In this document: in pieces, positions 743 to 21,636 of the stretch
Numbering within the stretch: position 1 is the stretch's first letter
How the letters are laid out: each line of letters begins with the position of its first letter
Origin: Sphaerochaeta associata
GTDB lineage: Bacteria > Spirochaetota > Spirochaetia > Sphaerochaetales > Sphaerochaetaceae
Direction: 5' to 3'
Assembly: GCF_022869165.1 (NCBI RefSeq)
Contig: NZ_CP094929.1
Location: forward strand, 124,001-188,000
DNA length: 64,000 nucleotides
Notes under the pieces: generated by a model
What the model was told of the DNA's origin: nothing
Databases searched by the model: none
What the model saw: only the letters and a program-made list of their open reading frames with translations
Program-made: the position numbers and the translations under genes

Positions 743-1312
743 TTACATCTGATACGTTTTCAAAATCAGGGAAGCGACATCATATCTGCTCTTGCGCAGA
801 TCCATCGCCTGCTTCTCAATGTGGCGGTGCGCCTGATTCTCATCCATTCCCAAGTTCTCGATCAAAGCCCATTTGGCGCGGTCGATGAGCTTGATCTCTT
901 CAATCTTGCGATGAAGCTTCTCGTTCTCGTTATGCATCGCAGAGATTCGTTTTCGCATTGACATGCCCAGGCTCAGGGCTTGGAAAAACATCTGGCGGAT
1001 GACCGGTTTGGAAACCACCAGAATTCCTTGGTCGCAGTACAGCGATTGTTCCTGTTCAAAATACTCGGCTTTCACCACCAGAATCGAGGTGGCGAGACTC
1101 TGCTGCGTTACCATGACGGCAAGCTCTTCACCCGACTCATCGAGCAGGGGTGCATTGACTATGACCAAGTCCAATTCAGAGTCAAGAATGATGCGCCTCG
1201 CCTGGGATGCACTCTGGCATTTGGTGATGTCGACCCGTCTCTCATGTTCTACGATGAGATTACACAGGGATTCACATCCCTTTTCGGTCGGCGAAACCAC
1301 CAGTACGCGCAT
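743..1312 (-). CDS. ANTAR-domain antitermination regulator with pseudo-receiver
   Basis: This 189-residue protein has a CheY-like N-terminal domain (about 1-115), a short coiled linker and a C-terminal three-helix ANTAR domain (about 125-187; motifs AKWALIENLGM and EKQAMDLRK). ANTAR proteins bind RNA hairpins and prevent formation of intrinsic terminators. In the receiver, the position where a phosphoacceptor Asp is expected reads VIVNAPL, so it is Asn53, while the conserved Lys102 remains. Control may therefore be by ligand or partner rather than phosphorylation. It sits 11 bases after glutamine synthetase. Leader hairpins of the ANTAR type precede this operon, glnN and asnB, which are its likely targets (inference). 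Start chosen at ATG 1312 after a GGGGG ribosome site; GTG 1315 is also possible. Confidence 0.88.
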   Translation of the reverse strand: MRVLVVSPTEKGCESLCNLIVEHERRVDITKCQSASQARRIILDSELDLVIVNAPLLDESGEELAVMVTQQSLATSILVVKAEYFEQEQSLYCDQGILVVSKPVIRQMFFQALSLGMSMRKRISAMHNENEKLHRKIEEIKLIDRAKWALIENLGMDENQAHRHIEKQAMDLRKSRYDVASLILKTYQM

Positions 1313-1323
1313 CACTGAACCCC

Positions 1324-2604
1324 CTAGGTAGTCAAGAAGAAGGGGAAGCGGCTGGCAAGGTTTTTGTCGCCGGCATCCTCGTAAGCACGCCAGTCGGCGA
1401 GCTTGGCCTCCAAGAAATACTCGAGCAGTCGCTTGGGAACAATCGAAGAGACAAACTCGCTGTTCTTTGCCAGTTCGATGGCATCGAACAGCGTCTCCGG
1501 CAGTGTTTTTCCACTCTGTTTCTGATAAGCCGAACCCACATACTCCTCAGAAGGAACCATATGGTTCTGAATCCCTTCCAACGCCGCATTGAGCAGCAAC
1601 GTGATGGCCAGATAGGGATTGCAGGCAGGGTCAGCCGAGCGGACCTCGATTCTCCGATATTCAGGACTTGATTGGGGAAGCCTGATCAGCAGTGAGCGGT
1701 TCGCCCTACCCCAGCCGATATAGCGTGGAGCCTCAAAGCAGCCCAGCCTCTCATATGAGTTGACCAGAGGATTGAGGAACAGGGAAATCTCATTGATGCG
1801 GTTCAGGATGCCGGCGGTCATCTGCTGCTCAAGGACCCTGCTTTGCTTTCCTTCCTGAGTGATGGAGAGATTGATATGCAGTCCGCTGCCGCTCTCTTGG
1901 GCGAGTGGTTTGGGCATGAACGAGGCAAACAACCCGCTTCGGTCGGCGATGGTTTTTACCACCGACTTGAAAGTGATGAAGTTGTCCGCCGCCTCCAAGG
2001 GCGAGCCGTACTTGAAGTCGATCTCATGCTGGCCCGGACCTGATTCATGGTGGCTTCGTTCGGTATAAAAGCCCATCTGCTCGAGGGTCAAACAGATTTC
2101 ACGCCTGACGTTCTCCCCCTTGTCCAGAGGTGCCACATCCAGGTAGGAGCCCCTGTCCATCGGTTGGAACGAAGGATGCCCCTCGTCGTCCAGCTTGAAC
2201 AGATAGAACTCGCACTCAGGCCCGACTCCAAACTGGTAGCCCTGGAGGGCGGCTTTCTGCACCGTCTCTGCAAGCAGGGACCTTCCATCCCCCTCGAAAG
2301 GAGTTCCATCGGGGCGCTTGATGGAGCAGAAGAAGCGTACAACCCGGCCCTGGGCCGGTCTCCAAGGGAGAATAGAGAGGGTGGAGGCGTCGGGAAAGAG
2401 CAGCAGGTCACTCTCATCCACCTGCAAAAATCCCTTTACAGCCGATGCATCGAAGGAGATGCCACTGGTAAAAGCCCGGTCCAATTCATCGGCGGAAATG
2501 GAAATATTCTTGATCTGACCAAAGATGTCACAGAACACAAGGCGCACGAAGCGTACATCCTGTTCCTTGATGAAGGTCATCACTTCGCTATGGGTATTGG
2601 TCAT
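1324..2604 (-). CDS. glnA: Glutamine synthetase, type I
   Basis: ATP-dependent ligation of ammonia to glutamate in the cytoplasm. The 426-residue product shows the GSI series: GPECEFYLF with metal-binding Glu near residue 134, HHESGPGQHEIDF, GSGLHINLS, an arginine-rich NRSLLIRLPQ segment and RRIEVRSADPACNPYLA. I do not see the NLYDLP-type loop carrying the adenylylated Tyr of enterobacterial enzymes, so covalent control is unlikely. The ATG at 2604 is preceded by GGGAGG; the frame is open further upstream but has no comparable site. It follows the GXGXG subunit of glutamate synthase by 16 bases, giving a GS-GOGAT transcription unit. Confident assignment. Confidence 0.96.
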   Translation of the reverse strand: MTNTHSEVMTFIKEQDVRFVRLVFCDIFGQIKNISISADELDRAFTSGISFDASAVKGFLQVDESDLLLFPDASTLSILPWRPAQGRVVRFFCSIKRPDGTPFEGDGRSLLAETVQKAALQGYQFGVGPECEFYLFKLDDEGHPSFQPMDRGSYLDVAPLDKGENVRREICLTLEQMGFYTERSHHESGPGQHEIDFKYGSPLEAADNFITFKSVVKTIADRSGLFASFMPKPLAQESGSGLHINLSITQEGKQSRVLEQQMTAGILNRINEISLFLNPLVNSYERLGCFEAPRYIGWGRANRSLLIRLPQSSPEYRRIEVRSADPACNPYLAITLLLNAALEGIQNHMVPSEEYVGSAYQKQSGKTLPETLFDAIELAKNSEFVSSIVPKRLLEYFLEAKLADWRAYEDAGDKNLASRFPFFLTT

Positions 2605-2620
2605 TTGTAACCTCCCTCTC

Positions 2621-3346
2621 TCAAACATGGGTGTATAACATCCTATAAGGTGTCGCAGAGTTCGCCTGCAGTATAAAAAAGTGGGACGCAAGCAGCTGCT
2701 GCTTGTCAAAGGAAAAAATCGCGCAATACTCATCCAGAAGTTCGCTCAGCACTTCCTTGTCGCCGTCCACCGCATCTCGGGCGGAAACCTGCTTGGGCAG
2801 GCTCACCGGAAGTGTATCACAGCGAAGATACATTATTCCACCGTGCATACCCGTTCCGCAGAAATATCCTACCGGAGGTTTTCCCTCCTGGTTACGTCCC
2901 AGTACAATAATCGTTCCCCCTGCCTGATATTCTCCCAGGAAGCTTCCCGCCCTGTCGCCGATGATCAGAAGCGGTTGTTTCTCCTGGTACGCTTTCATAT
3001 GGATGCCCGAACGATAGCCCGAGCTGTCGCGGATGTAGATGGCACCTCCGCGCATCGCATAGCCCGTTCCATCACCACAACTGCCATGGATGATGATTTT
3101 ACCATCATTCATGGTATCGCCGGTGGCATCCTGGCCATTCCCATGAACGGTGATCGTCCCCCCATCCAGAAAGCATCCCAGGGCGTTGCCGGCCGTTCCA
3201 TTGATGAACAGCTGCTTGTCAGCGAGGGCCGAGCCGATATACCGCTGCCCGGTCGCCCTTTCGATTGTTATCTGGTCATCATCCGTGTCTCTGATGGCCT
3301 TGTTCAAGGCTTCGTACTCCATGAAGCCTGCAGGTATGGTTGTCAT
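2621..3346 (-). CDS. Glutamate synthase, GXGXG (alpha-subunit C-terminal) protein
   Basis: A 241-residue stand-alone version of the C-terminal beta-helix domain of the large glutamate synthase subunit. Repeating turns such as GGTITVHGNG, DGKIIIHGSCGDGTGYAMRG and GGTIIVLG are visible between residues 45 and 165. In the fused enzyme this domain holds the channel wall between glutaminase and synthase sites. Here it is a separate gene, as in archaeal and some anaerobe glutamate synthases. ATG 3346 overlaps the upstream reductase stop (ATGA), after a GGGAGG site. The last 50 residues have no obvious motif. Confidence 0.9.
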   Translation of the reverse strand: MTTIPAGFMEYEALNKAIRDTDDDQITIERATGQRYIGSALADKQLFINGTAGNALGCFLDGGTITVHGNGQDATGDTMNDGKIIIHGSCGDGTGYAMRGGAIYIRDSSGYRSGIHMKAYQEKQPLLIIGDRAGSFLGEYQAGGTIIVLGRNQEGKPPVGYFCGTGMHGGIMYLRCDTLPVSLPKQVSARDAVDGDKEVLSELLDEYCAIFSFDKQQLLASHFFILQANSATPYRMLYTHV

Positions 3347-4575
3347 ACTGGCCCTCCCAAGTGCAGTTGCCGTACATTCTTTGCGAAAGCCATCAAGAGA
3401 GGCTCCTCGCAAATAAGGGTGAAATCGAGTGAATCAAGTTCGACTCTATTGCGGATCATCGCCGTGTAGATACCGGCTCTCTTGCATGCTTCCCCTATCA
3501 AGATGCACCCGACCAGATGATTGTCCTTGACGAACAAGCGCTTGTATCCTTCCTGGCAGGCAATCAAGTGGGACGTTCCCTCGTACCGTCCTACGGTGAT
3601 AAGGTGCAGACCCATAAGTGAAAGGGCATTCATGGCGACGGCCCTGTCAAAGGAAGCTTCGCCTCCGGCCATATTGGTTCCGGCAGTCTCTCCTTGGAGG
3701 TATGCATTGGGAAGCAGGGCAAGCACCGCCTTTTGGCCGCTTATCATCTCAGGCCCTTCGGTGCAGTCGCCTGCAGCAAAGACATCTGCATCGCTGGTTC
3801 TTCCCCCCTCGTCTACGAGAATGCCGCGATTGACATCGAGGCCTGCTTCTTTGGCCAGTTGGATGTTCGGCTTGACTCCCACGGCGATGACCAACAAGTC
3901 GAAACCAATGACGCTGCCGCTTTGCAGCAAGGCTTCGTTGGCGGTGCATTCACGGATGCTGTCGCCCAAAAAGAAGCGAAGACCCTGCTCTTGGAGGTGT
4001 TTTCGAACCTGCTCGGAGGCAGCATCATCGAGCACACTCATCAGAACCCTCGGTGCGAGATCCACCACACTGACCGAATGCACCTTGTCAATGATTGCCT
4101 CGGCACATTTAAGGCCGATGAGTCCTGCACCCAGAATGAGGACGCGGCTCTCTTTTCTCAAATGAGCCTGCAGGCGCTTGGCTTCATCAAGGGCGAGGAA
4201 GGTGAAGCAGTTCTTCACCTCCTCCAGTCCTTTGATCGGGGGGATGAAAGGAGAAGAGCCGGTTGCCAAGAGCAGTTTGTCATAGGCAAGGACTGCTTCG
4301 GAATCGAGAAGAACAGTCTTCTTCTCCTTGTCGATGCTTGTTGCACGAATACCCTGCAGTACCGTCACCGAGTTCTCTTCATAAAAGGCGGCGGCGCGAT
4401 AGGCCAAACGGGCTTCATCGGTCTTTCCCTGCAATAAGTAGGAGATCAGGGGCCGGCTGTAGCACGGGTGGTTCTCCTCTCCGATTACAGTGATCGGTCC
4501 CTCCGTATCAATGGTCCTGATAGCCTCGATGCAGGCGGTGCTTGCTATGGAATTCCCTATCATTACGTAGTGCAT
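3343..4575 (-). CDS. FAD-dependent NAD(P)H oxidoreductase of the glutamate synthase operon
   Basis: A 410-residue pyridine nucleotide-disulphide-type flavoprotein related to rubredoxin and nitrite reductase NADH modules. An N-terminal FAD site starts at VMIGNSIASTACIEAIR, a second Rossmann motif at VLILGAGLIGLKCAEAI (about 145-161) should bind NAD(P)H, and DVFAAGDCTEG is the typical FAD-ribityl motif. It probably passes electrons from NAD(P)H to the adjacent ferredoxin and on to the synthase subunit, replacing the usual GltD (inference from context). The stop overlaps the next start by four bases, and only one base separates it from the ferredoxin gene, so translation is probably coupled. Confidence 0.88.
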   Translation of the reverse strand: MHYVMIGNSIASTACIEAIRTIDTEGPITVIGEENHPCYSRPLISYLLQGKTDEARLAYRAAAFYEENSVTVLQGIRATSIDKEKKTVLLDSEAVLAYDKLLLATGSSPFIPPIKGLEEVKNCFTFLALDEAKRLQAHLRKESRVLILGAGLIGLKCAEAIIDKVHSVSVVDLAPRVLMSVLDDAASEQVRKHLQEQGLRFFLGDSIRECTANEALLQSGSVIGFDLLVIAVGVKPNIQLAKEAGLDVNRGILVDEGGRTSDADVFAAGDCTEGPEMISGQKAVLALLPNAYLQGETAGTNMAGGEASFDRAVAMNALSLMGLHLITVGRYEGTSHLIACQEGYKRLFVKDNHLVGCILIGEACKRAGIYTAMIRNRVELDSLDFTLICEEPLLMAFAKNVRQLHLGGPV

Positions 4576-4576
4576 A

Positions 4577-5005
4577 TCAACGCTCCTCGAAGACGATGGC
4601 CTTGTTGGGACAGCCTTGGATGCAGGCAGGCTGTCCTTGTGAATTGGTGGTGCAAAGTTCGCACTTTTGCATCACTCCCTCCACAGCCGGTGTCAAAGCC
4701 CCGTAGGGGCAGGCCATGATGCAGGAATAACACAGGACGCAACGACTTTGGTCGATGACGATCACCCCGTCCTTGCTCGTTATCGCCCCGCCGATGCAAC
4801 TTTTGACACACAGCGGCTCGGTGCAGTGACGGCAGTTGACGGCAAAGCTGATGGCCCCGCGTTGTTCGACGGTGATTCGGGCCTGGATTTGTTTGTCTTT
4901 CAATGCCTTGACCATATCCTTCACACCCGAATTGGCATACGCGCAGTAGTACTCGCACAGGTGGCAGCCCAGACACCACATTTCATTGACATAGATGCGT
5001 TTCAT
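4577..5005 (-). CDS. Multi-cluster 4Fe-4S ferredoxin of the glutamate synthase operon
   Basis: A 142-residue iron-sulphur protein of the HycB/DmsB electron-transfer type. Cysteine groups are visible at CLGCHLCEYYC, CRHCTEPLCVKSC, CVLCYSCIMACPYG and CELCTTNSQGQPACIQGCP, enough for about four clusters. It lies between the FMN synthase subunit and the FAD reductase, so it most likely carries electrons between them. Start at ATG 5005 with a perfect GGAGG site nine bases upstream. Confidence 0.9.
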   Translation of the reverse strand: MKRIYVNEMWCLGCHLCEYYCAYANSGVKDMVKALKDKQIQARITVEQRGAISFAVNCRHCTEPLCVKSCIGGAITSKDGVIVIDQSRCVLCYSCIMACPYGALTPAVEGVMQKCELCTTNSQGQPACIQGCPNKAIVFEER

Positions 5006-5015
5006 GGTTTGCCTC

Positions 5016-6521
5016 CTATTGGCCGGCATGTGCTATGCCGAGAATCTTCAGCTCGGTCTCGTTCAGGCCGATGCCTCTGAGCATCAGGCGATTGCCACGA
5101 AGCGCCTCGATGCTGTTGATGCCCATGCCTCCCATCATCTCCTTGATCTCATGGTTCCATGCGGTGAGGAGATTGACCAGATGATTGCTTCCCACCTCTG
5201 GGTTAAGTCGCTTCACCAGCTCGGGATTCTGCGTAGCGATACCCCAGTTGCACTTGCCGCTGTGGCACGTACGGCACAGATGGCAACCCAAGGCGATCAA
5301 GGCGCTGGTGGCGATGTAGATTGCATCGGCTCCCAGGGCGATGGCCTTGATGACATCGCTGCTGCTACGGATCGAGCCTCCCACGACCAAGCTGACGTTG
5401 CCCCTGATGCCCTCTTGGCGCAGTCTCTGGTCGACACTGGCCAGTGCCAATTCGATGGGGATGCCGACATTGTCACGAATCCGGGCCGGAGCAGCACCTG
5501 TGCCTCCGCGAAACCCATCGATGGCGATGATGTCCGCACCGCTGCGGGCGATGCCGCTGGCGATGGCCGAGATGTTATGCACCGCTGCTACTTTTACAAT
5601 GACCGGCTTGGTGTAACGGGTCGCTTCCTTGAGGGCGTAGACGAGCTGTCTCAGGTCCTCGATGGAGTAGATGTCGTGATGGGGTGCAGGACTTATGGCA
5701 TCGGCATGCAGGGGGATCATGCGGGTGGCGGAGATGTCCTCTCCAATCTTTGAACCCGGCAGGTGCCCTCCGATACCCGGCTTGGCTCCCTGTCCCATCT
5801 TGATCTCAATCGCCGCCCCGGCGTTCAGGTACTCGGGGTGTACACCGAAGCGGCCCGAGGCAACCTGGACGATGGTATTCTTTCCATAGTGATAGAAGTC
5901 CTTGTGCAGGCCCCCTTCGCCGGTGTTGTAGAAGGTGCCCAGTTCGCTGGCCGCCATGGCAAGACTCTTGTGGACGTTGTAGGAGATCGAGCCGTAGGAC
6001 ATGGCACTGAACATGATCGGGATATCGAGCTTCAATTGTCCTGACGAATTGGGTATGATTCGACCTTCTGCATCCCGGCTGATTTTGGAGCTCTTCCTTC
6101 CCAGGTAGGTCCGTGTTTCCATAGGTTCGCGCAGCGGGTCGATGGAAGGGTTGGTCACCTGACTCGCATTGATCAGCATCTTATCCCAGTACACCGGATA
6201 ATCCTTTGGTGTTCCCATGGAGGCCAGCAGTACTCCTCCGGTTCCTGCCTGACGGTAGATGTCCTCGATGACCTCCGTCTTCCAGTTTGCATTCTCCTTG
6301 AAGATGTGGTCGGTCTTTACAATCTTCAGGGCCCGGGTGGGGCAGAGGGAGACACAGCGATGGCAGTTGACGCAGAGGCTCTCATCGGCAGTCATGCGTT
6401 TCTTATCCTCGTCGTAGTGATGCACCAAATTGGCACACTGCCGCTCGCAGACCCGACAGGTGATGCACCTGTCCTGGTTGCGCATAATCTCAAAGGGCGG
6501 ATACAGGTAGTTGATGCCCAT
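5016..6521 (-). CDS. Glutamate synthase, ferredoxin-domain and FMN-binding synthase subunit
   Basis: A 501-residue synthase core that converts 2-oxoglutarate plus channelled ammonia to glutamate. The N terminus carries two 4Fe-4S motifs (CITCRVCERQC and CVNCHRCVSLCP, residues 18-60). The FMN barrel follows, with GAKPGIGGHLPG, the RGGTGAAPARIRDN phosphate-binding region and CHLCRTCHSGKCNWG, the motif that ligates the 3Fe-4S cluster in GltB proteins. ATG 6521 has an AAGGAG site and lies 32 bases inside the 3' end of the amidotransferase gene, implying coupled translation. An extra N-terminal ferredoxin module is typical of the archaeal-like split form. Confidence 0.93.
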   Translation of the reverse strand: MGINYLYPPFEIMRNQDRCITCRVCERQCANLVHHYDEDKKRMTADESLCVNCHRCVSLCPTRALKIVKTDHIFKENANWKTEVIEDIYRQAGTGGVLLASMGTPKDYPVYWDKMLINASQVTNPSIDPLREPMETRTYLGRKSSKISRDAEGRIIPNSSGQLKLDIPIMFSAMSYGSISYNVHKSLAMAASELGTFYNTGEGGLHKDFYHYGKNTIVQVASGRFGVHPEYLNAGAAIEIKMGQGAKPGIGGHLPGSKIGEDISATRMIPLHADAISPAPHHDIYSIEDLRQLVYALKEATRYTKPVIVKVAAVHNISAIASGIARSGADIIAIDGFRGGTGAAPARIRDNVGIPIELALASVDQRLRQEGIRGNVSLVVGGSIRSSSDVIKAIALGADAIYIATSALIALGCHLCRTCHSGKCNWGIATQNPELVKRLNPEVGSNHLVNLLTAWNHEIKEMMGGMGINSIEALRGNRLMLRGIGLNETELKILGIAHAGQ

Positions 6522-7641
6522 GTGCTTCTCCTTCTTGCATGCTGTCCAAGGTGACGATGACCGCTTTTCCTCCGCTGGGATACCAGAGTCGGTCGGGATC
6601 GGGTTCAATGACCCGGATTGCTGCTTCCTCACTGGCCAGGTAGACCCTGTCTCCCTTTTCGGCGGCCACCAGGCTGCGCAGCTTGAGTCGATCGTTGAGG
6701 GCCATGAGACCGCCGTTGAAACCAAGGATGATCGAGAAAGGCCCGGTGATGAGCATGCTGGCGAAAGTGTTGCGCAGGTATGAGTACTCTTCGCGCTCCT
6801 TGGGCTCCTTTTGTTCGATTGTCGACCAGAAGGGGGCGGCGAGTACGTGGGAGACCTCTTCGAGGGTGAGACCCATCCTGCGGTGAAGATAGTCGATCAT
6901 GTAGGTGATGACCTCGGTATCGGTCTGCAGCGTGCATGAATAGCCGTACATTTCTATATGTCGGCGGTTTGCATCGTAACTTGAGATCTCACCATTGTGC
7001 ACCACACTGTAGGAGAGCAGACTGAAAGGGTGGCTACCGCCCCACCAACCAGGAGTGTTGGTGGGGTAGCGGCCGTGAACTGTCCAACTATAGCCTTCGT
7101 ATTCGTCAAGCATGTAGAACTCGCCTACATCCTCGGGGAATCCGACGGCCTTGAAGACCCCCATGTCCTTGCCCGAGGAGAAGACATAGGCACCTTCGAT
7201 TTCCCGGTTTATACGGATGACGCACCGGGCGGTATACTCATCCTCGTCCAACTGGCTGAAGGAGAGCTTGGTGGGAAGTGCGGTTACAAAATACCGCCAA
7301 ATGAGGGGCACATCGGTGATGGCCGGATGCTTCTTGGTAGGAATCTTGGAGAGATTGATCAAGTCGAAGTGTTCTTCCAGGAACTCCTCGCATGTGCGTT
7401 TTGCCTCGGATGAGTAGTAAAAGATGTGCAAGGCCGTATAGTCCTTGTACTCGGGATAAATCCCATATCCTGCAAATCCTCCTCCCAGTCCGTTGCTTCT
7501 GTCGTGCATGACCGAGATGGAGGTGATGGCCTCTCGTGCCGAGAAGCGCTTGCCGCTGCGGTCGATGATGCCGCTGATGGCGCATCCGCTTGGTATACGG
7601 ACCTCTCCTTCCAAAGGCATTCGCTGGTGATAGCCGTCCAT
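6490..7641 (-). CDS. Glutamate synthase, class II glutamine amidotransferase subunit
   Basis: A 383-residue stand-alone glutaminase domain releasing ammonia from glutamine. The catalytic Cys is expected at Cys20 in PSGCAISGI; the first 19 residues would then be removed or simply precede it, as in other split GltB1 proteins. NGLGGGFAGYGIYP, the VVHNGEISSYDANR segment and the TDTEVITY segment match the Ntn-hydrolase amidotransferase fold. It is the first gene of the operon; a GGGGAG site precedes the ATG, and a leader terminator ends only 21 bases upstream (7663-7719). The start could be a few codons later but no better ribosome site is seen. Confidence 0.92.
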   Translation of the reverse strand: MDGYHQRMPLEGEVRIPSGCAISGIIDRSGKRFSAREAITSISVMHDRSNGLGGGFAGYGIYPEYKDYTALHIFYYSSEAKRTCEEFLEEHFDLINLSKIPTKKHPAITDVPLIWRYFVTALPTKLSFSQLDEDEYTARCVIRINREIEGAYVFSSGKDMGVFKAVGFPEDVGEFYMLDEYEGYSWTVHGRYPTNTPGWWGGSHPFSLLSYSVVHNGEISSYDANRRHIEMYGYSCTLQTDTEVITYMIDYLHRRMGLTLEEVSHVLAAPFWSTIEQKEPKEREEYSYLRNTFASMLITGPFSIILGFNGGLMALNDRLKLRSLVAAEKGDRVYLASEEAAIRVIEPDPDRLWYPSGGKAVIVTLDSMQEGEAHGHQLPVSAL

Positions 7642-7662: not shown

Positions 7663-7723
7663 AAAAAGGCGTCCACCATCGATAGCTTGCTCATGAAGCT
7701 ACCGTTGGTGGACGCCTTTGTCC
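7663..7723 (-). terminator. Leader attenuator with hexaloop hairpin, glutamate synthase operon
   Basis: On the minus strand a 23-base stem with two mismatches (arms starting AAGGCGTCCACC and ending GGTGGACGCCTT) is followed by five T residues: an intrinsic terminator before the first gene. Its 5' arm overlaps a second hairpin at 7710-7723: stem GGAC/GTCC with loop AAAGGC. Loop positions 1 (A) and 4 (G) fit the known ANTAR-recognition rule. Forming the small hairpin uses the first bases of the terminator arm, so the two structures exclude each other. The same layout occurs before glnN and asnB. Confidence 0.85.
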
Positions 7724-7740: not shown

Positions 7741-7769
7741 AGTGTATCCAAGAAAAGGGAGTTTGTCAC
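7741..7769 (-). promoter_or_regulatory. Predicted sigma-70 promoter of the glutamate synthase operon
   Basis: Minus-strand GTGACA, 17-base spacer, TACACT. Transcription would begin near 7734, about 11 bases before the hexaloop hairpin and 93 bases before the first ATG. Confidence 0.6.
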
Positions 7770-8138: not shown

Positions 8139-8191
8139 GTGGGTAATATAGGGGTGATAGTATGTATACGCAAGTCTTATTGTTTATATTA

Positions 8192-8221
8192 TTGAACAAA
8201 ATAGTGAATAAGTCTTATAAT
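8192..8221 (+). promoter_or_regulatory. Predicted upstream promoter of glnN
   Basis: TTGAAC, 18-base spacer, TATAAT. It would give a leader of about 275 bases containing the attenuator at 8336-8384. The surrounding stretch is A+T-rich and repeats AGTCTTAT twice, near 8174 and 8211. Confidence 0.55.
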
Positions 8222-8298
8222 TTAAACATTATCAACTAACAATCTATAGCTGTTGTTACGAGTCCATCCTCTTGAGGTGAAAATCCGACGCACCCTAG

Positions 8299-8328
8299 TT
8301 GACAGCAATCGGCTCTTGGGTGTACAAA
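8299..8328 (+). promoter_or_regulatory. Predicted proximal promoter of glnN
   Basis: A perfect TTGACA, 18-base spacer, TACAAA. The start site would fall near 8335, placing the hexaloop hairpin at the extreme 5' end of the transcript, as also predicted for asnB. Confidence 0.6.
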
Positions 8329-8335
8329 GTGCCAT

Positions 8336-8384
8336 CAGCAAAGGCGCTGTAGTCCGTTATGGGCTACAGCGCCTTTCTCTTTTT
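8336..8384 (+). terminator. Leader attenuator with hexaloop hairpin, glnN
   Basis: A 16-base stem (AAAGGCGCTGTAGTCC with GGGCTACAGCGCCTTT, one G-T pair, loop GTTAT) followed by CTCTTTTT is a strong intrinsic terminator 117 bases before the glnN start. Its 5' arm overlaps a small hairpin at 8336-8349: stem CAGC/GCTG with loop AAAGGC, identical in loop but different in stem from the glutamate synthase leader. A terminator between promoter and gene implies regulated read-through. Confidence 0.85.
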
Positions 8385-8501
8385 CCGGCATATATGTCGG
8401 AATTGGGTTGGTGGGCACCTCCTTTTCTGGCGGCCGAACGGTGACAAGGCCAGGAGGGGAGTGTGCCGAGAACCCGTGAGAACCACCACAGGAGGCAGTA
8501 T

Positions 8502-10595
8502 ATGACAGAACGTGTTGATCAGTATTTCGGGAGCATGGTGTTCGGCGATAGAATGATGCGCGAATATCTGGCTAAAGATACCTATCGTGAGTTGAAACAG
8601 ACCATCCGCGAGGGCAAGGAGCTTGACATCACCATAGCCAACCAAGTCGCCCATGCCATGAAGGAGTGGGCATTGAGCAAAGGTGCAACCCATTTCACCC
8701 ATTGGTTCCAGCCCATGACGGGAATCACCGCTGAGAAACACGAGAGCTTCATCTCCCCTGCAAAGGACGGCTCGGCCCTGCTTGAGTTCAGCGGCAAGGA
8801 GCTCATCAAGGGTGAGCCCGATGCTTCCTCCTTCCCCTCCGGAGGGCTCAGGGCCACCTTCGAAGCACGGGGATATACCGCCTGGGACCCCTCAAGCTAT
8901 GCCTTCATCAAGGAAAACACCTTGTGCATCCCCACCGCCTTCTGTTCCTACAGCGGTGAAGTATTGGATAAGAAAACGCCGCTGTTGCGTTCCATGGAGG
9001 TCATCAGCACCCAGGCCTTGAGAATTCTCAAGCTTTTCGGAAAGACAGAAGTGAAACGGGTGGTGACCACCGTCGGACCCGAACAGGAGTACTTTCTCAT
9101 CGATAAGAGCCTGTACCTCAAGCGCAAGGACTTGATTCATACCGGTCGAACCCTCCTCGGCGCACGGCCTCCCAAAGGACAGGAGCTGGAAGACCACTAT
9201 TTCGGCAACCTCAAGAGCCGTGTTTCGGCCTTCATGCGTGAGTTGGATGAAGAACTGTGGAAGCTCGGCATCCTTGCAAAAACCGAGCATAACGAAGTCG
9301 CCCCCAGCCAGCATGAACTCGCCCCCATCTTCACCACCAGCAACCTCGCCGTCGACCACAACCAGCTGACCATGGAGATGATGAAAAAGACTGCCGACAA
9401 GCATGGCTTGGTCTGCCTGCTGCATGAAAAACCGTTTGCCGGGGTGAATGGATCAGGCAAGCACAACAACTGGTCCATCTCCACCGATACCGGGATCAAC
9501 CTGCTGGAACCCGGGGACAATCCTAAGGACAATGCCCAGTTCCTGCTCTTTTTGGTCGCTGTCATTGCAGCGGTTGATGAGTATCAGGATCTGCTGAGGG
9601 TTTCTGTTGCCAGTGCCGGCAACGATCACCGACTCGGTGCCAACGAAGCACCGCCTGCAATCGTCTCCATGTTCCTGGGTGAAGAGCTCACCAACATCCT
9701 GGACTCCTTGGCCGACGGCACCGACTGCCCCTGCAAGGCTCCCTCGTCGATGTTGCTGGGAGTGAACCTGCTGCCTCCACTGCCCAAGGATACCACCGAC
9801 CGAAACAGGACCAGCCCGTTCGCCTTTACCGGCAACAAGTTCGAGTTCAGGATGCTGGGCTCCTCCTTCTCCGTCAGCGGTCCGAACTTTGTGCTCAATA
9901 CCATCATCGCCGACAAGCTCTCCCTCTTCGCAGATCAACTGGAGAACGAGCAGGATTTCTCCTGCGCCCTTTCCAAGCTGGTCAAGGAGACCTATCAGAA
10001 GCACCGCAGGATTGTCTTCAACGGGAACAACTATGCCCAGGCTTGGGTGGAGGAAGCCCAGAAACGGGGCTTGTCGAACCTCAAGTCCACCGTTGACGCC
10101 CTTCCGGCCTTCATCTCCAGAAAAAGCATCGACCTTTTCTCCAAGTTCGGCGTACTCAACGAGACGGAGATCCACAGCCGCTATGAGATTGTGCTTGAGA
10201 ACTATTGCAAGACGATCAACATCGAGGCTCTTACCATGACCGACATGGTTCGCAAGCAGATTCTTCCCGCGCTCAGTTCCTTCAGCGGCAGTCTGGCCCG
10301 CTCTGCACAAGACAAACTGGCCCTGGTTCCTGCTCTCACCCTCTCGTACGAGAAGTCTACCGTTGCCTCTTTGAGCAGATTGGCCGACAGCCTCGACTCT
10401 GCTGTGGTTGAACTTGAGAAGCGGGTGGTCGATGCGCGTATGCTCAGTGAAGTACTGCAGGCCGCACGGTATTACCATGATGAAGTGCTGCCTGCCATGG
10501 CCGAAGTTCGGTCGCTCAGCGACTGTGCCGAGCTCTTAATGGGTGAAGCCTCCTATCCGATACCCACCTACGAACAACTGCTGTACTCCGTATAA
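8502..10595 (+). CDS. glnN: Glutamine synthetase, type III
   Basis: A 697-residue GSIII, the large dodecameric class found in Bacteroides, some cyanobacteria and spirochaetes. It makes glutamine from glutamate, ammonia and ATP. Visible family features include THFTHWFQPMTG and EKHESFISP near the N terminus, GPEQEYFLID (metal-binding Glu), HNEVAPSQHELAP, SGKHNNWSISTD and RTSPFAFTGNKFEFR. ATG 8502 follows AGGAGG with ideal spacing; the frame is open for 13 codons upstream without a better site. It is single-transcribed and ended by the hairpin at 10619. The genome thus carries two GS types with apparently shared leader control. Confidence 0.96.
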   Translation: MTERVDQYFGSMVFGDRMMREYLAKDTYRELKQTIREGKELDITIANQVAHAMKEWALSKGATHFTHWFQPMTGITAEKHESFISPAKDGSALLEFSGKELIKGEPDASSFPSGGLRATFEARGYTAWDPSSYAFIKENTLCIPTAFCSYSGEVLDKKTPLLRSMEVISTQALRILKLFGKTEVKRVVTTVGPEQEYFLIDKSLYLKRKDLIHTGRTLLGARPPKGQELEDHYFGNLKSRVSAFMRELDEELWKLGILAKTEHNEVAPSQHELAPIFTTSNLAVDHNQLTMEMMKKTADKHGLVCLLHEKPFAGVNGSGKHNNWSISTDTGINLLEPGDNPKDNAQFLLFLVAVIAAVDEYQDLLRVSVASAGNDHRLGANEAPPAIVSMFLGEELTNILDSLADGTDCPCKAPSSMLLGVNLLPPLPKDTTDRNRTSPFAFTGNKFEFRMLGSSFSVSGPNFVLNTIIADKLSLFADQLENEQDFSCALSKLVKETYQKHRRIVFNGNNYAQAWVEEAQKRGLSNLKSTVDALPAFISRKSIDLFSKFGVLNETEIHSRYEIVLENYCKTINIEALTMTDMVRKQILPALSSFSGSLARSAQDKLALVPALTLSYEKSTVASLSRLADSLDSAVVELEKRVVDARMLSEVLQAARYYHDEVLPAMAEVRSLSDCAELLMGEASYPIPTYEQLLYSV

Positions 10596-10648: not shown

Positions 10649-10704
10649 TGTTGTCGATGGGCAAATTCATGGTAGAGTATGGGTGTTCCCACCTTGGAGG
10701 CAGG

Positions 10705-11625
10705 ATGTATCAGGAGAATCTTTCCGAGCTGCTTTACTCATTGTTCAACACCATTCCCGATCCATTTATGGTCATCGGCGAGGATGGTACGTACCTTGAG
10801 GTGTTCGGAGGAACCGAGCGAAGCCTTTATGATGATGGAAAACCGATGCAGGGTAAGAATATTTATGAGTTCATGCCCAAGGAGTTTGCCGATTTCTACA
10901 TGCAGCAGGTACACCATACCCTGGAAATGAACTGCCTCAACTCGTTCGATTATCAACTTGAGACAGACAAGGTAATCCTCCCTGAATTCAATGGACCGGG
11001 AGGAACCCAGTGGTTTGAAACCAGGATGTTTCCGCTTAAAACACCATATAAGGGTCAGCGTGCGGTTACTGCACAAATCATCAACATCACCGAGCGACGA
11101 AACCTGCATAAAAAATTGCGAGAGCTCTCCTACGTCGACCCGCTGACAGGTCTTTACAACCGTCGATATTTTCTTGAACGGGTGAGAATCCATCTGATGG
11201 AGAAGGGCAGGGCCCACATCATGCTCTGTGACATCGACCGGTTCAAGGGGGTGAATGACCGGTATGGCCACCTCGCCGGTGATGCCGTTTTGAAGGAATT
11301 TGCCAATATTACCAAGCAAGTGTTGAAGCACAACCATGCCATTGCCCGCTTGGGAGGTGATGAGTTTGTCATGGCCCTGACAGACCTGACCGACGAGGAG
11401 GCGGTTGCGATGGGCGAACAGTTGAGAAAACAGGTGGAAGCGACGCCGTTCCATTACCAGACCCAGGTGCTTTCGATTCAGATCAGCGTCGGCATAGCAA
11501 AGCTCAGCTATGAGGACCTTGAGAAAAGCGAATTGATCGCCGATGCCGACCGCGCCCTCTATCAAGCGAAGGCTGGTGGAAAAAATCGGGTCTGCTTGTT
11601 CAACGATGGAACAAGGGGGTTGTGA
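10705..11625 (+). CDS. PAS-GGDEF diguanylate cyclase
   Basis: A 306-residue soluble protein: a PAS sensor domain (about 8-130, beginning LLYSLFNTIPDPFMVI) and a GGDEF domain (about 140-300). The catalytic LGGDEFVMAL motif is intact, as is the DPLTGLYNRR entry motif, so cyclic-di-GMP synthesis is expected. The RxxD inhibitory site is absent (KHNH at that place), so product inhibition may be lacking. Start at ATG 10705 after TTGGAGG. The stop overlaps the next gene start by one base (TGATG), so the two are probably co-expressed. Confidence 0.9.
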   Translation: MYQENLSELLYSLFNTIPDPFMVIGEDGTYLEVFGGTERSLYDDGKPMQGKNIYEFMPKEFADFYMQQVHHTLEMNCLNSFDYQLETDKVILPEFNGPGGTQWFETRMFPLKTPYKGQRAVTAQIINITERRNLHKKLRELSYVDPLTGLYNRRYFLERVRIHLMEKGRAHIMLCDIDRFKGVNDRYGHLAGDAVLKEFANITKQVLKHNHAIARLGGDEFVMALTDLTDEEAVAMGEQLRKQVEATPFHYQTQVLSIQISVGIAKLSYEDLEKSELIADADRALYQAKAGGKNRVCLFNDGTRGL

Positions 11626-13631
11626 TGTTCAATATCCTGTTCAATATCGCCCTGCTTCTGGCTCTTACCATCTTCTTCGCAACCTATCCGTTTCGTGATC
11701 TGAAGCGCCTCACTTCCCATAAGGTATTGGTTGGTGTGACCATCGGCGTTGTTGGCATTCTGGTCATGCTCAATCCCCTTACGCTCTATGAAGGGGTTAT
11801 CTTTGATTCGAGAACCATTCTGCTGACCGTCTCGGGTATGGTGTTCGGCCTTCTGCCGACAGCCATCGGAGCGGCTATGATGGCAATCTATCGGCTGATG
11901 ATCGGCGGCGGGGGCATCTACACCGGCCTTACAACCATTCTTCTCAGTAGTGTGATAGGGGTGTGGTGGCACAAAAAGCGCTACCAGAAGGTACTGAAGA
12001 AGCATGAACACTTTGGGTTGGAGTACTATCTGATAGGTGTAATCACCCATGTGGGTATGCTGCTGGCCACGCTTCTCATGCCGTCTGATATACGCAGGAC
12101 GGTAGTCGCAGTCATGGCTTTTCCCGTCTTGGTAATCTATCCGGTGGGAACCTACCTGCTCAGCCTGTTGCTCTTCAGCCAAGCTAGGCGCGTTGTCTCC
12201 TTAACCGAGCTTGAAAAGAGTGAACGATTGTTCAAGACCATGTTCGAGGAAGCTCCGATCGGCATGTCCCTCACCGACCTTGAGACCGGCAGGATCGAGA
12301 ACATCAACCAAAGCTATTCCGATATGCTCGGATACACCAAAGAGGAGCTGCTGGGAAGAAAGTGGGAGGATTTCACCCATCCTGAAGATAAAGAACTCAG
12401 CAAAGCGGCTACTGCCAGTCTGCATGAGCAGACGAATGGTCCCCTTTCGCTGGACAAGCGATTCATCCGCAAGGATGGGCAGATACTCTGGGCCAACCTC
12501 TCCCTCTCAATTTTTACCACCAGGGATACGGAAAAGACCGAGTCCTTGTGTATGACCGTCGATATCACCGAACGCAAGCACTATGAGCAGAAGATTCTGT
12601 ATGCCTCAAACCACGATGCCCTGACCGGCTTATACAATCGTGTTCACTTTGAGGAGTATGTGCGTGATATGCGAATCCCTGACGATCAGGTCCTGACAAT
12701 TGCATTCGGGGATGTGAACGGACTGAGAATCCTCAACGAGGCGTTCGGCCGTGAAGAAGGCAACCGCCTGCTCGTTCGTATAGCACGGATTCTGCAGAGG
12801 CATCTGAGTCAGGACGACTACGTCAGCCGTGTGGGAGGCGATGAGTTCGCCTTGTTCTTCTTTCAACGCACTCCTGATCAGATTGAAACCATTCTTGGCA
12901 AGGTGGCCGTCGACATTGCCTCCCTTGAGATGATGGGGTCTGTCGTTCCCTCAATGAGCTTCGGGCTCTCTTCTTTGAGCGCCTCCCAGGGCAACATCAA
13001 CGAAGCGATCAAGCAGGCGGAGAAGGACCTGGCTACGCGAAAACTTGTCGACAGTCCTCATACCCAAGGCAAGGCCGTCTATGCAATCATCAACACCCTT
13101 CATGAGAAGAACAAACGGGAGGAGAATCACTCTCGACGCGTAAGCGAGTTGTGTGAACGCCTTGCCAAGGCCTACGGAATGGGTGATATGGCTGCCAGTG
13201 AACTCAGGCTCGTAGGCCTTTTGCATGACATCGGCAAAATCGCCATTCCTGAATCCATACTCAACAAGGAGGGCAGACTGACCGCCGAGGAATGGAAGGA
13301 GATGAAACGCCACGCAGAGATCGGATACCGCATTCTCAACTCCGTCGAGGATATGGCAGGTCTTGCCCAGTATGTGCTGGCCCATCACGAGCATTACGAC
13401 GGCAACGGCTATCCAAAGGGTCTCAAAGGAGAAGAGATTCCCCTGCAGTCGAGGATTATCTGCATAGCCGATGCATATGATGCCATGACGGCCTCCCGCC
13501 CGTACCGCAAGACGGTGACCGCCGAACAGGCGGCTTCTGAAATCAAGCGGTGCAGCCGGACCCAATTCGATCCAGCGCTTGTAAAGGTTTTCATCGAGGA
13601 TGTGTTGGCTTTAGACTACGAGGGCGTGTAG
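11625..13631 (+). CDS. Membrane 5TM-PAS-GGDEF-HD-GYP cyclic-di-GMP protein
   Basis: A 668-residue membrane protein. About six hydrophobic helices fill residues 1-185 and match the 5TM-LYT sensor module (FDSRTILL and IYRLMIGGGG are typical). A PAS domain follows (about 200-325), then a GGDEF domain with intact RVGGDEFALFF, then a C-terminal HD-GYP phosphodiesterase with HDIGKIAIP, HHEHYDGNGYPKGL and IADAYDAMT all present. It can therefore in principle both make and degrade cyclic-di-GMP; which dominates cannot be read. The RxxD site is absent from the GGDEF. ATG 11625 overlaps the upstream stop; GTG 11622 is an alternative. Confidence 0.92.
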   Translation: MFNILFNIALLLALTIFFATYPFRDLKRLTSHKVLVGVTIGVVGILVMLNPLTLYEGVIFDSRTILLTVSGMVFGLLPTAIGAAMMAIYRLMIGGGGIYTGLTTILLSSVIGVWWHKKRYQKVLKKHEHFGLEYYLIGVITHVGMLLATLLMPSDIRRTVVAVMAFPVLVIYPVGTYLLSLLLFSQARRVVSLTELEKSERLFKTMFEEAPIGMSLTDLETGRIENINQSYSDMLGYTKEELLGRKWEDFTHPEDKELSKAATASLHEQTNGPLSLDKRFIRKDGQILWANLSLSIFTTRDTEKTESLCMTVDITERKHYEQKILYASNHDALTGLYNRVHFEEYVRDMRIPDDQVLTIAFGDVNGLRILNEAFGREEGNRLLVRIARILQRHLSQDDYVSRVGGDEFALFFFQRTPDQIETILGKVAVDIASLEMMGSVVPSMSFGLSSLSASQGNINEAIKQAEKDLATRKLVDSPHTQGKAVYAIINTLHEKNKREENHSRRVSELCERLAKAYGMGDMAASELRLVGLLHDIGKIAIPESILNKEGRLTAEEWKEMKRHAEIGYRILNSVEDMAGLAQYVLAHHEHYDGNGYPKGLKGEEIPLQSRIICIADAYDAMTASRPYRKTVTAEQAASEIKRCSRTQFDPALVKVFIEDVLALDYEGV

Positions 13632-18687: not shown

Positions 18688-19880
18688 GTATGCAGTCAAG
18701 CATTGCAGTAGGCAGGCAGTACCTTCTGGATACCTATGCACAGGTGCCGGTGGTCTTCTCCGGCGGCCAGGGCATGTACCTGATCGACGAAGAGGGCAAA
18801 AGATACTTGGACTTTGTCGGAGGCATTGCCGTCAACGCACTTGGGTATCATGATGCAGGTCTCTCTCTGGCCATCACAGAAGTGGTCGACAAGGGTCTGC
18901 TCCACTGCTCCAATCTCTATTACAACACCCAGGCTGTAGCGGCAGCCAAGGCTCTGTGCACCCTTGCAGGGATGGACCGGGCTTTTTTCTGCAACAGCGG
19001 AGCCGAGGCGAATGAGGCGGCCCTCAAGCTGGCACGCAAGTTCGGGCACAGGAGCAGCCCGGCGCGCACCGACATCATTTCGATGGTCCACTCCTTCCAC
19101 GGGCGCACCTACGGCGCCATCACAGCCACCGGACAGGACAAGTACCATGTGAACTTCGACCCGCTTCCCCAGGGATTCAGCTATGCACAGTTCAATGATT
19201 TGGAGAGTGTGAAAGCCTTGGTGAGTGAAAAGACATGTGCCATCATCGTCGAGCCCATTCAGGGAGAGGGCGGCATCATACCTGCGACATCCGCCTTCCT
19301 CCAGGGCTTGCGTGAATTGTGCGACCAGCAGGACTTGCTGCTCATCTACGATGAGGTGCAGTGCGGCATGGGTCGAAGCGGAAAGCCGTTCGCCTATCAG
19401 GTCTATGGCGTAAAGCCCGATATTCTGACTACAGCCAAGGCTCTTGCCGGAGGAATCCCGGCCGGTGCCATGCTTACCTGTGATAAGGCGAATGATGTGT
19501 TCACCCCCGGCGATCACGCCTCCACCTTCGGCGGCAATGCCCTGGCCATGGCCGGTGTCAATGAGATGGTCCGCCGCCTTATGGACAGTGAGTTCACCGA
19601 CCATGTACAGCAGATGGGCTCCTACCTGCGCGAGAAGCTTGTACAATTGGCCTCACATTATCCCTCGTTGTGCGGTGAGGTGCGGGGTCTTGGCTTGATC
19701 AACGGCATGGTGTTGACCATCCCTCCGCGCAAGGTCGTCGATGCATGTTTTGAGCGCGGCCTGTTGGTTGCAAGCGCCGGCTACGATGTGCTTCGCTTCG
19801 TCCCGCCTCTGGTGGTACAGGAAAAAGACATCGACAAGGCACTATCAATTGTTGAACAGGCTCTTGCATCTTTGCTCTGA
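18684..19880 (+). CDS. argD: Acetylornithine aminotransferase
   Basis: A 398-residue PLP-dependent class III aminotransferase. FFCNSGAEANEAALKLARK is the PLP-phosphate region, SFHGRTYGAITATGQ, LIYDEVQCGMGRSG and TTAKALAGGIPAGAM, which contains the Schiff-base Lys (about residue 252), are all present. Closes the argCJBD cluster. The end of the gene carries the predicted asnB promoter (19864-19892), so the two units overlap at DNA level. Confidence 0.94.
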   Translation: MSMQSSIAVGRQYLLDTYAQVPVVFSGGQGMYLIDEEGKRYLDFVGGIAVNALGYHDAGLSLAITEVVDKGLLHCSNLYYNTQAVAAAKALCTLAGMDRAFFCNSGAEANEAALKLARKFGHRSSPARTDIISMVHSFHGRTYGAITATGQDKYHVNFDPLPQGFSYAQFNDLESVKALVSEKTCAIIVEPIQGEGGIIPATSAFLQGLRELCDQQDLLLIYDEVQCGMGRSGKPFAYQVYGVKPDILTTAKALAGGIPAGAMLTCDKANDVFTPGDHASTFGGNALAMAGVNEMVRRLMDSEFTDHVQQMGSYLREKLVQLASHYPSLCGEVRGLGLINGMVLTIPPRKVVDACFERGLLVASAGYDVLRFVPPLVVQEKDIDKALSIVEQALASLL

Positions 19881-19892
19881 AGCGTCTAGTAT
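19864..19892 (+). promoter_or_regulatory. Predicted asnB promoter inside the end of argD
   Basis: TTGCAT, 17-base spacer, TAGTAT. The -35 lies in the argD coding sequence. The predicted start, near 19899, is immediately before the hexaloop hairpin. Confidence 0.6.
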
Positions 19893-19900
19893 CGACCCAA

Positions 19901-19948
19901 GAACAAAGACGTTCCTACCCTTGAAGGGATAGGCGCGTCTTTTTTTTT
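19901..19948 (+). terminator. Leader attenuator with hexaloop hairpin, asnB
   Basis: Outer arms AAAGACG and CGTCTTT enclose a second paired segment (CCTACCC with GGGATAGG), followed by a run of ten T residues that abuts the asnB ribosome site. The terminator 5' arm overlaps a small hairpin at 19901-19914: stem GAAC/GTTC with loop AAAGAC. Only 11 bases separate the T-run from the ATG, so asnB has no room for its own promoter downstream and must be transcribed through this structure. Confidence 0.85.
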
Positions 19949-19959
19949 GGAGGTATAGG

Positions 19960-21636
19960 ATGTGTGGATTTGTAGGTATGTTTGACATTCGCTCGTATAC
20001 ACCCCAGTTGCGCTCCCAAGTTCTGGCGATGTCCCGAAAGATTCGCCACCGGGGTCCGGACTGGTCCGGAGTGTTTGCATCTGAGAAGGCGGTCATCAGT
20101 CACGAACGACTGGCCATCGTCGACCCGTTGTCGGGAGGTCAACCGCTGTACAGCAAAGACAGGAATATCGTGTTGGCCGTGAACGGGGAGATTTACAATC
20201 ATCAGCAGATCCGGAGGCGCTATGCCGATACCTATGAATTCCAGACACAGAGTGACTGCGAAGTCATCCTTGCACTGTATCAGGACAAGGGTCCAGATTT
20301 TCTGGAGGATTTGAACGGCATTTTCGCCTTTGCACTCTATGACCAAACAAAGGATGTGTTTCTCATCGCACGCGACCATATCGGCATCATCCCCCTCTAT
20401 CAGGGGTGGGACGATGAGGGTCGCTACTACGTTGCCAGCGAATTGAAAGCCCTTGAAGGGGTTTGCTCCTCCATCGAGCTCTTTCTGCCCGGTCAGTATT
20501 TCTATAGTCCCGATGGAAAGCCCAAGCAGTGGTACTCACGTACGTGGACCAGTTACGATGTGGTCAAGGAGCATGGCGGCACCATCGAGGAGGTCAAGCA
20601 TGCACTGGAGGCGGCGGTGAAACGACAGCTGATGAGCGACGTACCCTACGGGGTGTTGCTCTCAGGAGGGTTGGACAGCTCGATCATCGCCGCCGTAACC
20701 GCCAAGTACGCCCAAAAACGTGTGGAGAGCGATGACCAGGAGACTGCATGGTGGCCGAGGCTTCACTCATTCGCCATCGGTCTTGAGGGCTCGCCCGACT
20801 TGAAAGCCGCACGTATTGCAGCCGATTATCTGGGTACGGTGCATCATGAGGTGCACTTTACCATCCAGGAGGCCCTCGATGCCCTCTCCGATGTAATCTA
20901 TCACTTGGAAACCAGCGACATCACCACCGTCAGGGCTGCCACCCCGATGTATCTCCTGGGGCGGGTGATAAAGTCGATGGGAATCAAGATGGTGCTCAGC
21001 GGCGAGGGAAGCGATGAGATTTTCGGCGGGTACCTGTACTTCCACAAGGCACCCAATGCGCGGGAGTTCCATGAGGAGACGGTGCGAAAGCTCTCCAAGC
21101 TCCACCTCTATGACTGCCTGAGGGCGAACAAGTCGCTTGCCGCCTGGGGTGTTGAAGGCAGGGTTCCCTTCCTGGACAAGGATTTCATGGACGTTGCAAT
21201 GAACCTCAATCCCGACCTCAAGCTCTGTCCTATTGCAGGTGAGCATAAGAGGATCGAGAAATGGCTGCTCAGGGAGGCTTTCAAGGAGTATCTGCCGCCG
21301 GAAATCACCTGGAGGCAGAAGGAACAGTTCAGTGACGGTGTCGGGTACAACTGGATTGATACGCTCAAGCGTATGACCGCCGACCTTGTCACCGATGAGC
21401 AGTTCGCCCTGGCCGCCAAGCGCTTTCCCATTCATACCCCTGCCACCAAGGAGGAGTACTACTACCGATGCTTGTTCGCCTCACATTTTCCCAGTGAGAG
21501 TGCTGCACGTTGTGTACCCCGTGAGGACTCGGTCGCCTGTTCAACAGCGAAGGCGTTGGAGTGGGACGAGGCTTTCAGGAAGATGAACGAGCCCAGTGGA
21601 AGAGCGGTGAGCGGGGTGCATGAGTCTGCGTACTAA
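19960..21636 (+). CDS. asnB: Asparagine synthetase (glutamine-hydrolysing)
   Basis: A 558-residue enzyme, close to the 554 residues of E. coli AsnB. MCGFVGMF exposes the catalytic Cys2 of the class II glutaminase domain; VNGEIYNHQQIRRR and TQSDCEVI complete that half. LLSGGLDSSIIAAV (about residue 230) is the PP-loop that adenylates aspartate, and LSGEGSDEIFGGYLYFHKAP is conserved in the synthetase half. The GGAGG site directly follows the leader terminator. Another glutamine-dependent enzyme under the same kind of leader as the two glutamine synthesis loci. Confidence 0.95.
   Translation: MCGFVGMFDIRSYTPQLRSQVLAMSRKIRHRGPDWSGVFASEKAVISHERLAIVDPLSGGQPLYSKDRNIVLAVNGEIYNHQQIRRRYADTYEFQTQSDCEVILALYQDKGPDFLEDLNGIFAFALYDQTKDVFLIARDHIGIIPLYQGWDDEGRYYVASELKALEGVCSSIELFLPGQYFYSPDGKPKQWYSRTWTSYDVVKEHGGTIEEVKHALEAAVKRQLMSDVPYGVLLSGGLDSSIIAAVTAKYAQKRVESDDQETAWWPRLHSFAIGLEGSPDLKAARIAADYLGTVHHEVHFTIQEALDALSDVIYHLETSDITTVRAATPMYLLGRVIKSMGIKMVLSGEGSDEIFGGYLYFHKAPNAREFHEETVRKLSKLHLYDCLRANKSLAAWGVEGRVPFLDKDFMDVAMNLNPDLKLCPIAGEHKRIEKWLLREAFKEYLPPEITWRQKEQFSDGVGYNWIDTLKRMTADLVTDEQFALAAKRFPIHTPATKEEYYYRCLFASHFPSESAARCVPREDSVACSTAKALEWDEAFRKMNEPSGRAVSGVHESAY

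Follow-up and report, generated by a model that had tools for sequence, protein, structure and literature searches.

The leader of glnN, the gene for a type III glutamine synthetase in a Sphaerochaeta-like spirochaete (51% G+C), raises the question of whether an ANTAR-type antitermination site can consist of a single hairpin at the very 5' end of the RNA. A sequence-only reading of the window (the whole 64,000-nt stretch of DNA analyzed here) had proposed such a site, and had left two options: a first hairpin that deviates from the usual form, or a one-hairpin variant bound at the nascent 5' end. The features of the window that bear on this question are the following:

743..1315, minus strand: the genome's sole ANTAR protein, with an Asp-less receiver, a coiled coil and an ANTAR domain (Pfam, structural model)
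743..7641, minus strand: operon of amidotransferase, glutamate synthase, ferredoxin, NAD(P)H oxidoreductase, GXGXG, GSI glnA and ANTAR protein genes (Pfam)
7710..7723, minus strand: gltB single hairpin GGAC[AAAGGC]GTCC, loop 7719-7714; terminator 5' arm from 7719
7741..7769, minus strand: promoter GTGACA-N17-TACACT of the glutamate synthase-like (gltB) operon (sequence)
8299..8304, plus strand: -35 box TTGACA of the glnN unit, invariant in the glnN leaders of the genus
8323..8328, plus strand: -10 box TACAAA of the glnN unit, 18-nt spacer; position relative to the hairpin conserved
8334..8335, plus strand: predicted +1 region of the glnN transcript (seventh nt past the -10 box, where A is enriched)
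8336..8349, plus strand: putative ANTAR-type single hairpin CAGC[AAAGGC]GCTG, antiterminator (sequence, fold; pairing-preserving stem changes among relatives)
8340..8376, plus strand: intrinsic terminator stem-loop, then CTCTTTTT; the hexaloop opens its 5' arm (sequence, fold)
8502..10595, plus strand: glnN, type III glutamine synthetase (Pfam GSIII_N, 4.5e-81)
19864..19892, plus strand: asnB promoter TTGCAT-N17-TAGTAT (sequence)
19901..19914, plus strand: asnB single hairpin GAAC[AAAGAC]GTTC; terminator 5' arm from 19905
19960..21636, plus strand: asnB, asparagine synthase B (NCBIfam NF006949, above cut-off)

In the glnN leader (8228-8400), the sole hexaloop hairpin with A and G at loop positions 1 and 4 (A1/G4) is the one at 8336-8349, with its loop at 8340-8345. 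All three window leaders share the form N4[AAAGRC]N4, their stems differing from one another while remaining self-complementary, and in each the terminator begins at the loop, the hexaloop and the 3' arm of the hairpin being the beginning of the terminator 5' arm. In computed folds, the glnN hairpin by itself has an energy of -4.4 kcal/mol and the terminator prevails in the full leader (-30.1 kcal/mol, z -7.9); the asnB and gltB leaders fold likewise (z -4.9 and -9.0, respectively). Two features of classical ANTAR RNAs are found in the element, namely an A1/G4 hexaloop on a stem of at least three pairs and a last hairpin that overlaps and excludes an intrinsic terminator. Further downstream of glnN, at 10651-13631, a GGDEF gene overlaps a second gene with PAS, GGDEF and HD domains.

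The predicted starts place the hairpin at about +2 in glnN and about +3 in asnB (boxes at 19864-19869 and 19887-19892, +1 near A19899), so the earlier estimate of one to two bases between start and hairpin was about right for both units. In gltB (minus strand, boxes at 7769-7764 and 7746-7741, +1 near A7734) the hairpin begins at about +12 and is preceded by a tail of about 11 nt, which could not accommodate a first hairpin of 12 nt. Taken singly, the window's -10 boxes for glnN and asnB are weak, and the predicted start sites become convincing through the relatives, not through the window alone.

An exhaustive A1/G4 hexaloop scan of 8150-8400, accepting stems of at least two pairs, returned besides the loop at 8340 only the weak GTG[ATAGTA]TGT at 8157, upstream of 8228, which agrees with the original claim that 8228-8335 holds no A1/G4 hairpin. 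Upstream in the asnB and gltB leaders, no A1/G4 hexaloop on a stem of at least three pairs turned up. A classical two-hairpin site could nevertheless be assembled if transcription began further upstream, around 8228, and the RNA then included a degenerate first hairpin (lacking A1/G4, or not a hexaloop). A good promoter-like sequence, TTGAAC-N18-TATAAT at 8192-8221, would suit such a start, and related two-hairpin sites do occur in gltB leaders of a sister genus. However, when glnN leaders of the genus were aligned with those of two sister genera, conservation on the upstream side set in at the TTGACA -35 box; this box and the -10 box are conserved, whereas the 8192-8221 boxes and the 8228-8298 stretch are unconserved in congeners. 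That stretch, A+T-rich and then G+C-rich between the two promoter sequences, was examined and no function was found for it. Together with the absence of a hexaloop hairpin from 8228-8335 and the recurrence in Clostridia of the same hairpin position behind near-consensus TTGACA/TATAAT promoters, this makes the upstream start unlikely.

The genome was then surveyed for other copies of the single-hairpin element. Among 116 candidate matches genome-wide, the three window sites were the only confident, intergenic copies, and after the flanks had been read they alone showed the hairpin plus terminator between genes. A loose loop-terminator pattern gave no excess in this genome (50 per strand versus 57 in the reversed control). 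Other candidates were rejected, two having stems of three pairs and one a stem of four in sequence with no U-run following the match. No copy was found in this genome before an ammonium transporter gene. Rfam scans of the window and eight named loci gave no family above its gathering score over the element; a weak match to ncS01 (E 0.097) corresponded to the terminator.

For comparison, glnN, asnB and gltB leaders were gathered from ANTAR-bearing relatives of the same family, and a family pattern was defined as TTGAC, CAAAGRCG and YGYCTTT in this order, separated by free gaps. Across 119 family genomes it matched 76 times, versus 5 for the reversed control. Although the pattern fixes just the closing C-G pair of the stem, stems of at least four pairs were present in 52 of the 62 distinct matches, where random pairing at the next three positions would give about 5%. 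The stems paired in many versions (CAGC/GCTG, GAAC/GTTC, CATC/GATG, AAAC/GTTT, AGGC/GTCT, TAAC/GTTA and others), and the distance from TTGAC to the loop was 40-47 nt in 51 of the 52 matches with such stems, 33-53 nt being allowed. Four matches with unpaired stems, including both matches of one genome, were counted as chance. In seven leaders of sister genera, AAGGAC replaces AAAGRC as the loop, A1 and G4 being kept.

The genes downstream of pattern matches were glnN, gltB, asnB, amtB, glnA, and those for CTP synthase, an amino-acid-binding protein and an ATP-grasp-like protein. The element was read directly ahead of ammonium transporter genes at three loci, with stems of the CATC/GATG type, and matches of this type occurred in five genomes of the family. 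Single loci carried it ahead of ATP-grasp-like, CTP synthase and amino-acid-binding protein genes, which suggests a regulon wider than ammonium assimilation. The strict element was found together with an ANTAR gene in 18 of 26 genomes that have one, versus 1 of 35 other genomes (Fisher 2e-8, kinship ignored).

A scan of the named genomes with a 9-sequence ANTAR protein alignment returned Sphaerochaeta, Treponema and many Clostridia (Sedimentibacter, Niameybacter, Ruminococcaceae, Christensenellaceae, Peptococcaceae and others). In the clostridial leaders the same hairpin lies directly behind near-consensus TTGACA/TATAAT promoters, as in TTGACA...TATACTATAATGTGTAGAGATGAAC[AAAGGC]GTTCATT. Clostridial NitR/GlnR ANTAR regulators are reportedly the subject of earlier papers, in which such sites may already have been described.

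The position of the hairpin relative to the promoter was quantified in 99 non-redundant elements, which came from relatives of Sphaerochaeta and from Clostridia and had been picked by hairpin and terminator with no use of promoter sequence. The best sigma-70-like promoter ended 10-18 nt before the loop in 78 of the 99 elements, versus 12.7% of shuffles, and promoter scores of at least 10 of 12 were reached by 74% of elements versus 3.9% of shuffles. The end of the -10 box was usually 6-12 nt from the stem (median 8 nt in spirochaetes, 10 nt in Clostridia). The seventh base past the -10 box was A in 51% of elements, and the base just before it C in 42%, an initiator-like signal of the kind expected for +1. 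Given this spacing, the hairpin would begin at about +1 to +6 in most elements, and a first hairpin, which needs at least 12 nt plus a linker, could not fit before it. The gltB leaders of this genus have a later hairpin, at about +9 to +13 from the predicted start.

Hidden first hairpins were also sought in the 99 elements. Upstream A1/G4 hexaloops with stems of at least three pairs occurred at chance level (18 seen, 16.8 expected), as did second hexaloops downstream of the first hairpin. With stems of at least four pairs, upstream hexaloops were slightly above chance (12 seen versus 6.8 expected, s.d. 2.4), and the excess consisted mostly of three two-hairpin gltB leaders of one genus and of sites within or upstream of the promoter. 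These three leaders, from one sister genus, carry as first hairpins AAGAC[AATGGT]GTCTT, TGAC[AAAGAA]GTCA and AGAC[AAAGAA]GTCT, each behind its own promoter-like sequence, and a second loop AAAGAC or AAGGAC about 30-35 nt apart; judged by sequence, they look like true two-hairpin ANTAR sites. The glnN leaders of the same genus have one hairpin.

Classical leaders drawn from PLSDB records served as controls. In the same kind of scan, Listeria eut leaders showed three clear pairs, ACGGTAC[AAAGGC]GTACTGT and AGC[AAAGAA]GCT, GCAC[AAAGAC]GTGT and GAGC[AACGGG]GCTC, and GCTAC[AAAGAA]GTAGC and GCTT[AAAGCC]AAGT, and a Rhodobacter NasT leader showed GGGTGC[AACGGC]GCATCC and CCCGC[AAGGAC]GCGGG, in keeping with the premise that classical ANTAR targets have two hairpins. 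A Phyllobacterium NasT leader contained weak hexaloops only and was ambiguous. Immediately ahead of eutV, Listeria has a site whose first hairpin lies behind a TTGACA-N17-TATAAT-N8 promoter, so placement of the first hairpin at +1 may be more widespread. Two of the PLSDB records, NZ_CP030101.1 (2.9 Mb) and NZ_CP154629.1 (2.6 Mb), are chromosome-sized sequences filed as plasmids, with hardly any genes listed.

Two tandem hexaloops with a linker of about 2-25 nt were thus absent from the glnN, asnB and gltB leaders and near chance in the 99 elements, and the element is therefore assigned to a new variant of ANTAR antitermination and not to the classical dual-hairpin RNAs. The hairpin's lock to the promoter, the onset of conservation at the -35 box and the near-chance frequency of upstream hairpins support the single-hairpin site at the RNA 5' end, and the comparison favors the second of the two options left by the earlier reading, the one-hairpin variant, over a deviant first hairpin.

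The candidate regulator is encoded nearby. The genome's sole ANTAR protein has an ANTAR domain scoring 57.5 bits (PF03861, cut-off 27.3), and its gene lies directly after glnA in the gltB operon, so that the regulator sits within its own presumed target operon. Its structural model (pLDDT 94.7) best matched EutV, free and RNA-bound, followed by Rv1626 and AmiR. The RNA-contact residues K143, K147 and M172 of EutV are conserved or K/R in this clade, Y164 is replaced by His and R142 by Ile. The phospho-acceptor position is Asn54 (N in 32 of 38 relatives), which makes phosphorylation an unlikely route of activation. Control by a partner protein, as AmiC controls AmiR, is plausible by analogy; that this partner is the co-encoded glutamine synthetase would be a guess.

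The hairpin, its exact overlap with the terminator, its place behind the promoter, its conservation and breadth, its co-occurrence with ANTAR genes and the single ANTAR protein of this genome are features read from the sequences; beyond these, we infer a start site, protein binding, antitermination, a direction of regulation and a nitrogen signal that would fit together in the following way. Transcription would start within a few bases of the hairpin. When no ANTAR protein is active, the hexaloop and the 3' arm would pair with the downstream arm to form the terminator, and polymerase would stop about 45 nt past the start. An ANTAR dimer activated probably by shortage of ammonium or glutamine would bind the A1/G4 hexaloop upon its emergence from RNA polymerase, stabilize the small hairpin and keep AAAGRC and the 3' arm away from the terminator, and polymerase would then read into glnN, asnB or the glutamate synthase-glnA-ANTAR operon. 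A single hairpin would thereby take on the tasks that classical sites divide between a recruitment hairpin (P1) and an antiterminator hairpin (P2). We consider it probable that each of the three leaders carries, at the 5' terminus of its transcript, a one-hairpin site for ANTAR antitermination, with binding and start site as predictions. The best reading of the comparative data is that this 5'-end variant, serving ammonium assimilation, spans Spirochaetota and Clostridia.

The closest known systems are the EutV sites of Enterococcus and Listeria eut genes. These share with the present element an A1/G4 hexaloop, a short stem and an antiterminator hairpin over the terminator 5' arm, and EutV likewise combines the ANTAR domain with receiver-like and coiled-coil parts. 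By contrast, EutV sites have two hairpins, whereas here the antiterminator is the only hairpin and also comes first in the RNA; EutW phosphorylates EutV, whereas the receiver here has no phospho-Asp (N54); and the targets are eut genes there and ammonium assimilation genes here. AmiR and NasR/NasT also antiterminate nitrogen genes through ANTAR domains, and AmiR has a receiver lacking a phospho-acceptor, hence the possibility of partner-protein control here; their leaders, however, have two hairpins. The RAT antiterminators of SacY/BglG resemble the element as one small, protein-stabilized hairpin over a terminator arm, but belong to an unrelated protein family and a different RNA, and as a rule they lie away from +1.

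Experimental work on EutV bears on the one-hairpin reading from both sides. In the eutP leader of E. faecalis, induction is lost or much reduced when P1 is deleted or the linker changed, and ANTARcc binds a single stem-loop less well than two (Ramesh et al. 2012, PMC3369931); both results count against that reading. On the other hand, the crystal structure shows an EutV dimer contacting one hexaloop at a time (Walshe et al. 2022, PMC8934654), and P1 and P2 hexaloops, each on its own, have similar affinities for EutV, although both loops are thought to be required in turn for antitermination (PMC8934654). The same study redefined the minimal ANTAR motif as a single hexaloop, posed the extent of single-hexaloop use as a question, and anticipated single-loop sites in settings free of the time limit that a transcribing polymerase imposes (PMC8934654). 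The predicted site has the sequence of this minimal motif, one hexaloop with G4, and it overlaps the terminator. In Desulfotomaculum, ANTAR sites were reported near glutamate/glutamine synthase genes (PMC3369931), that is, with the same target pathway and in a related phylum; the search model used there demanded two hairpins, so that one-hairpin sites could not be reported as such.

An agent other than the ANTAR protein could also be considered, either a different RNA-binding protein or a ligand to which the hairpin states would answer, or protection of the mRNA as the main task of the 5' hairpin, since a 5'-terminal stem-loop can stabilize an mRNA. Protection would need neither the loop sequence nor the exact terminator overlap, no matching Rfam family was present, and the A1/G4 hexaloop, the autogenous location with the only ANTAR gene and the co-occurrence with ANTAR genes all point to the ANTAR protein; another agent or a mainly protective task is accordingly judged improbable. 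A DNA operator for a repressor, with the terminator incidental, is very improbable: the inverted repeat, with its 6-nt spacer, spans +1 as repressor sites typically do, but the half-sites vary within the genome (CAGC, GAAC, GGAC), whereas the spacer AAAGRC stays the same and always opens a terminator arm, as a loop-reading RNA binder and not an operator would predict, and the element tracks the ANTAR gene.

Under the one-hairpin ANTAR reading, the 5'-terminal position may itself be part of the mechanism: the dimer would load on the first RNA to leave a just-escaped polymerase, the recruitment hairpin would be replaced by pausing early in elongation or by both domains of the dimer on a single loop, and +1-anchored single hairpins would be the standard for ammonium assimilation in Spirochaetota and Clostridia. 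We put this forward tentatively, as a possibility somewhat short of even. If true, two-hairpin forms would be found where extra capture time is needed.

The element offers a natural set of putative single-hexaloop sites on elongating polymerases, with leaders of about 45 nt and many orthologues. What the first hairpin contributes is directly testable with it, since sister genomes combine a one-hairpin glnN leader with a two-hairpin gltB leader and have one ANTAR protein for both. Search models that demand two hairpins would miss a predicted ammonium-assimilation regulon (glnN, gltB, asnB, amtB, glnA and others) that the present comparison traced in Spirochaetota and Clostridia.
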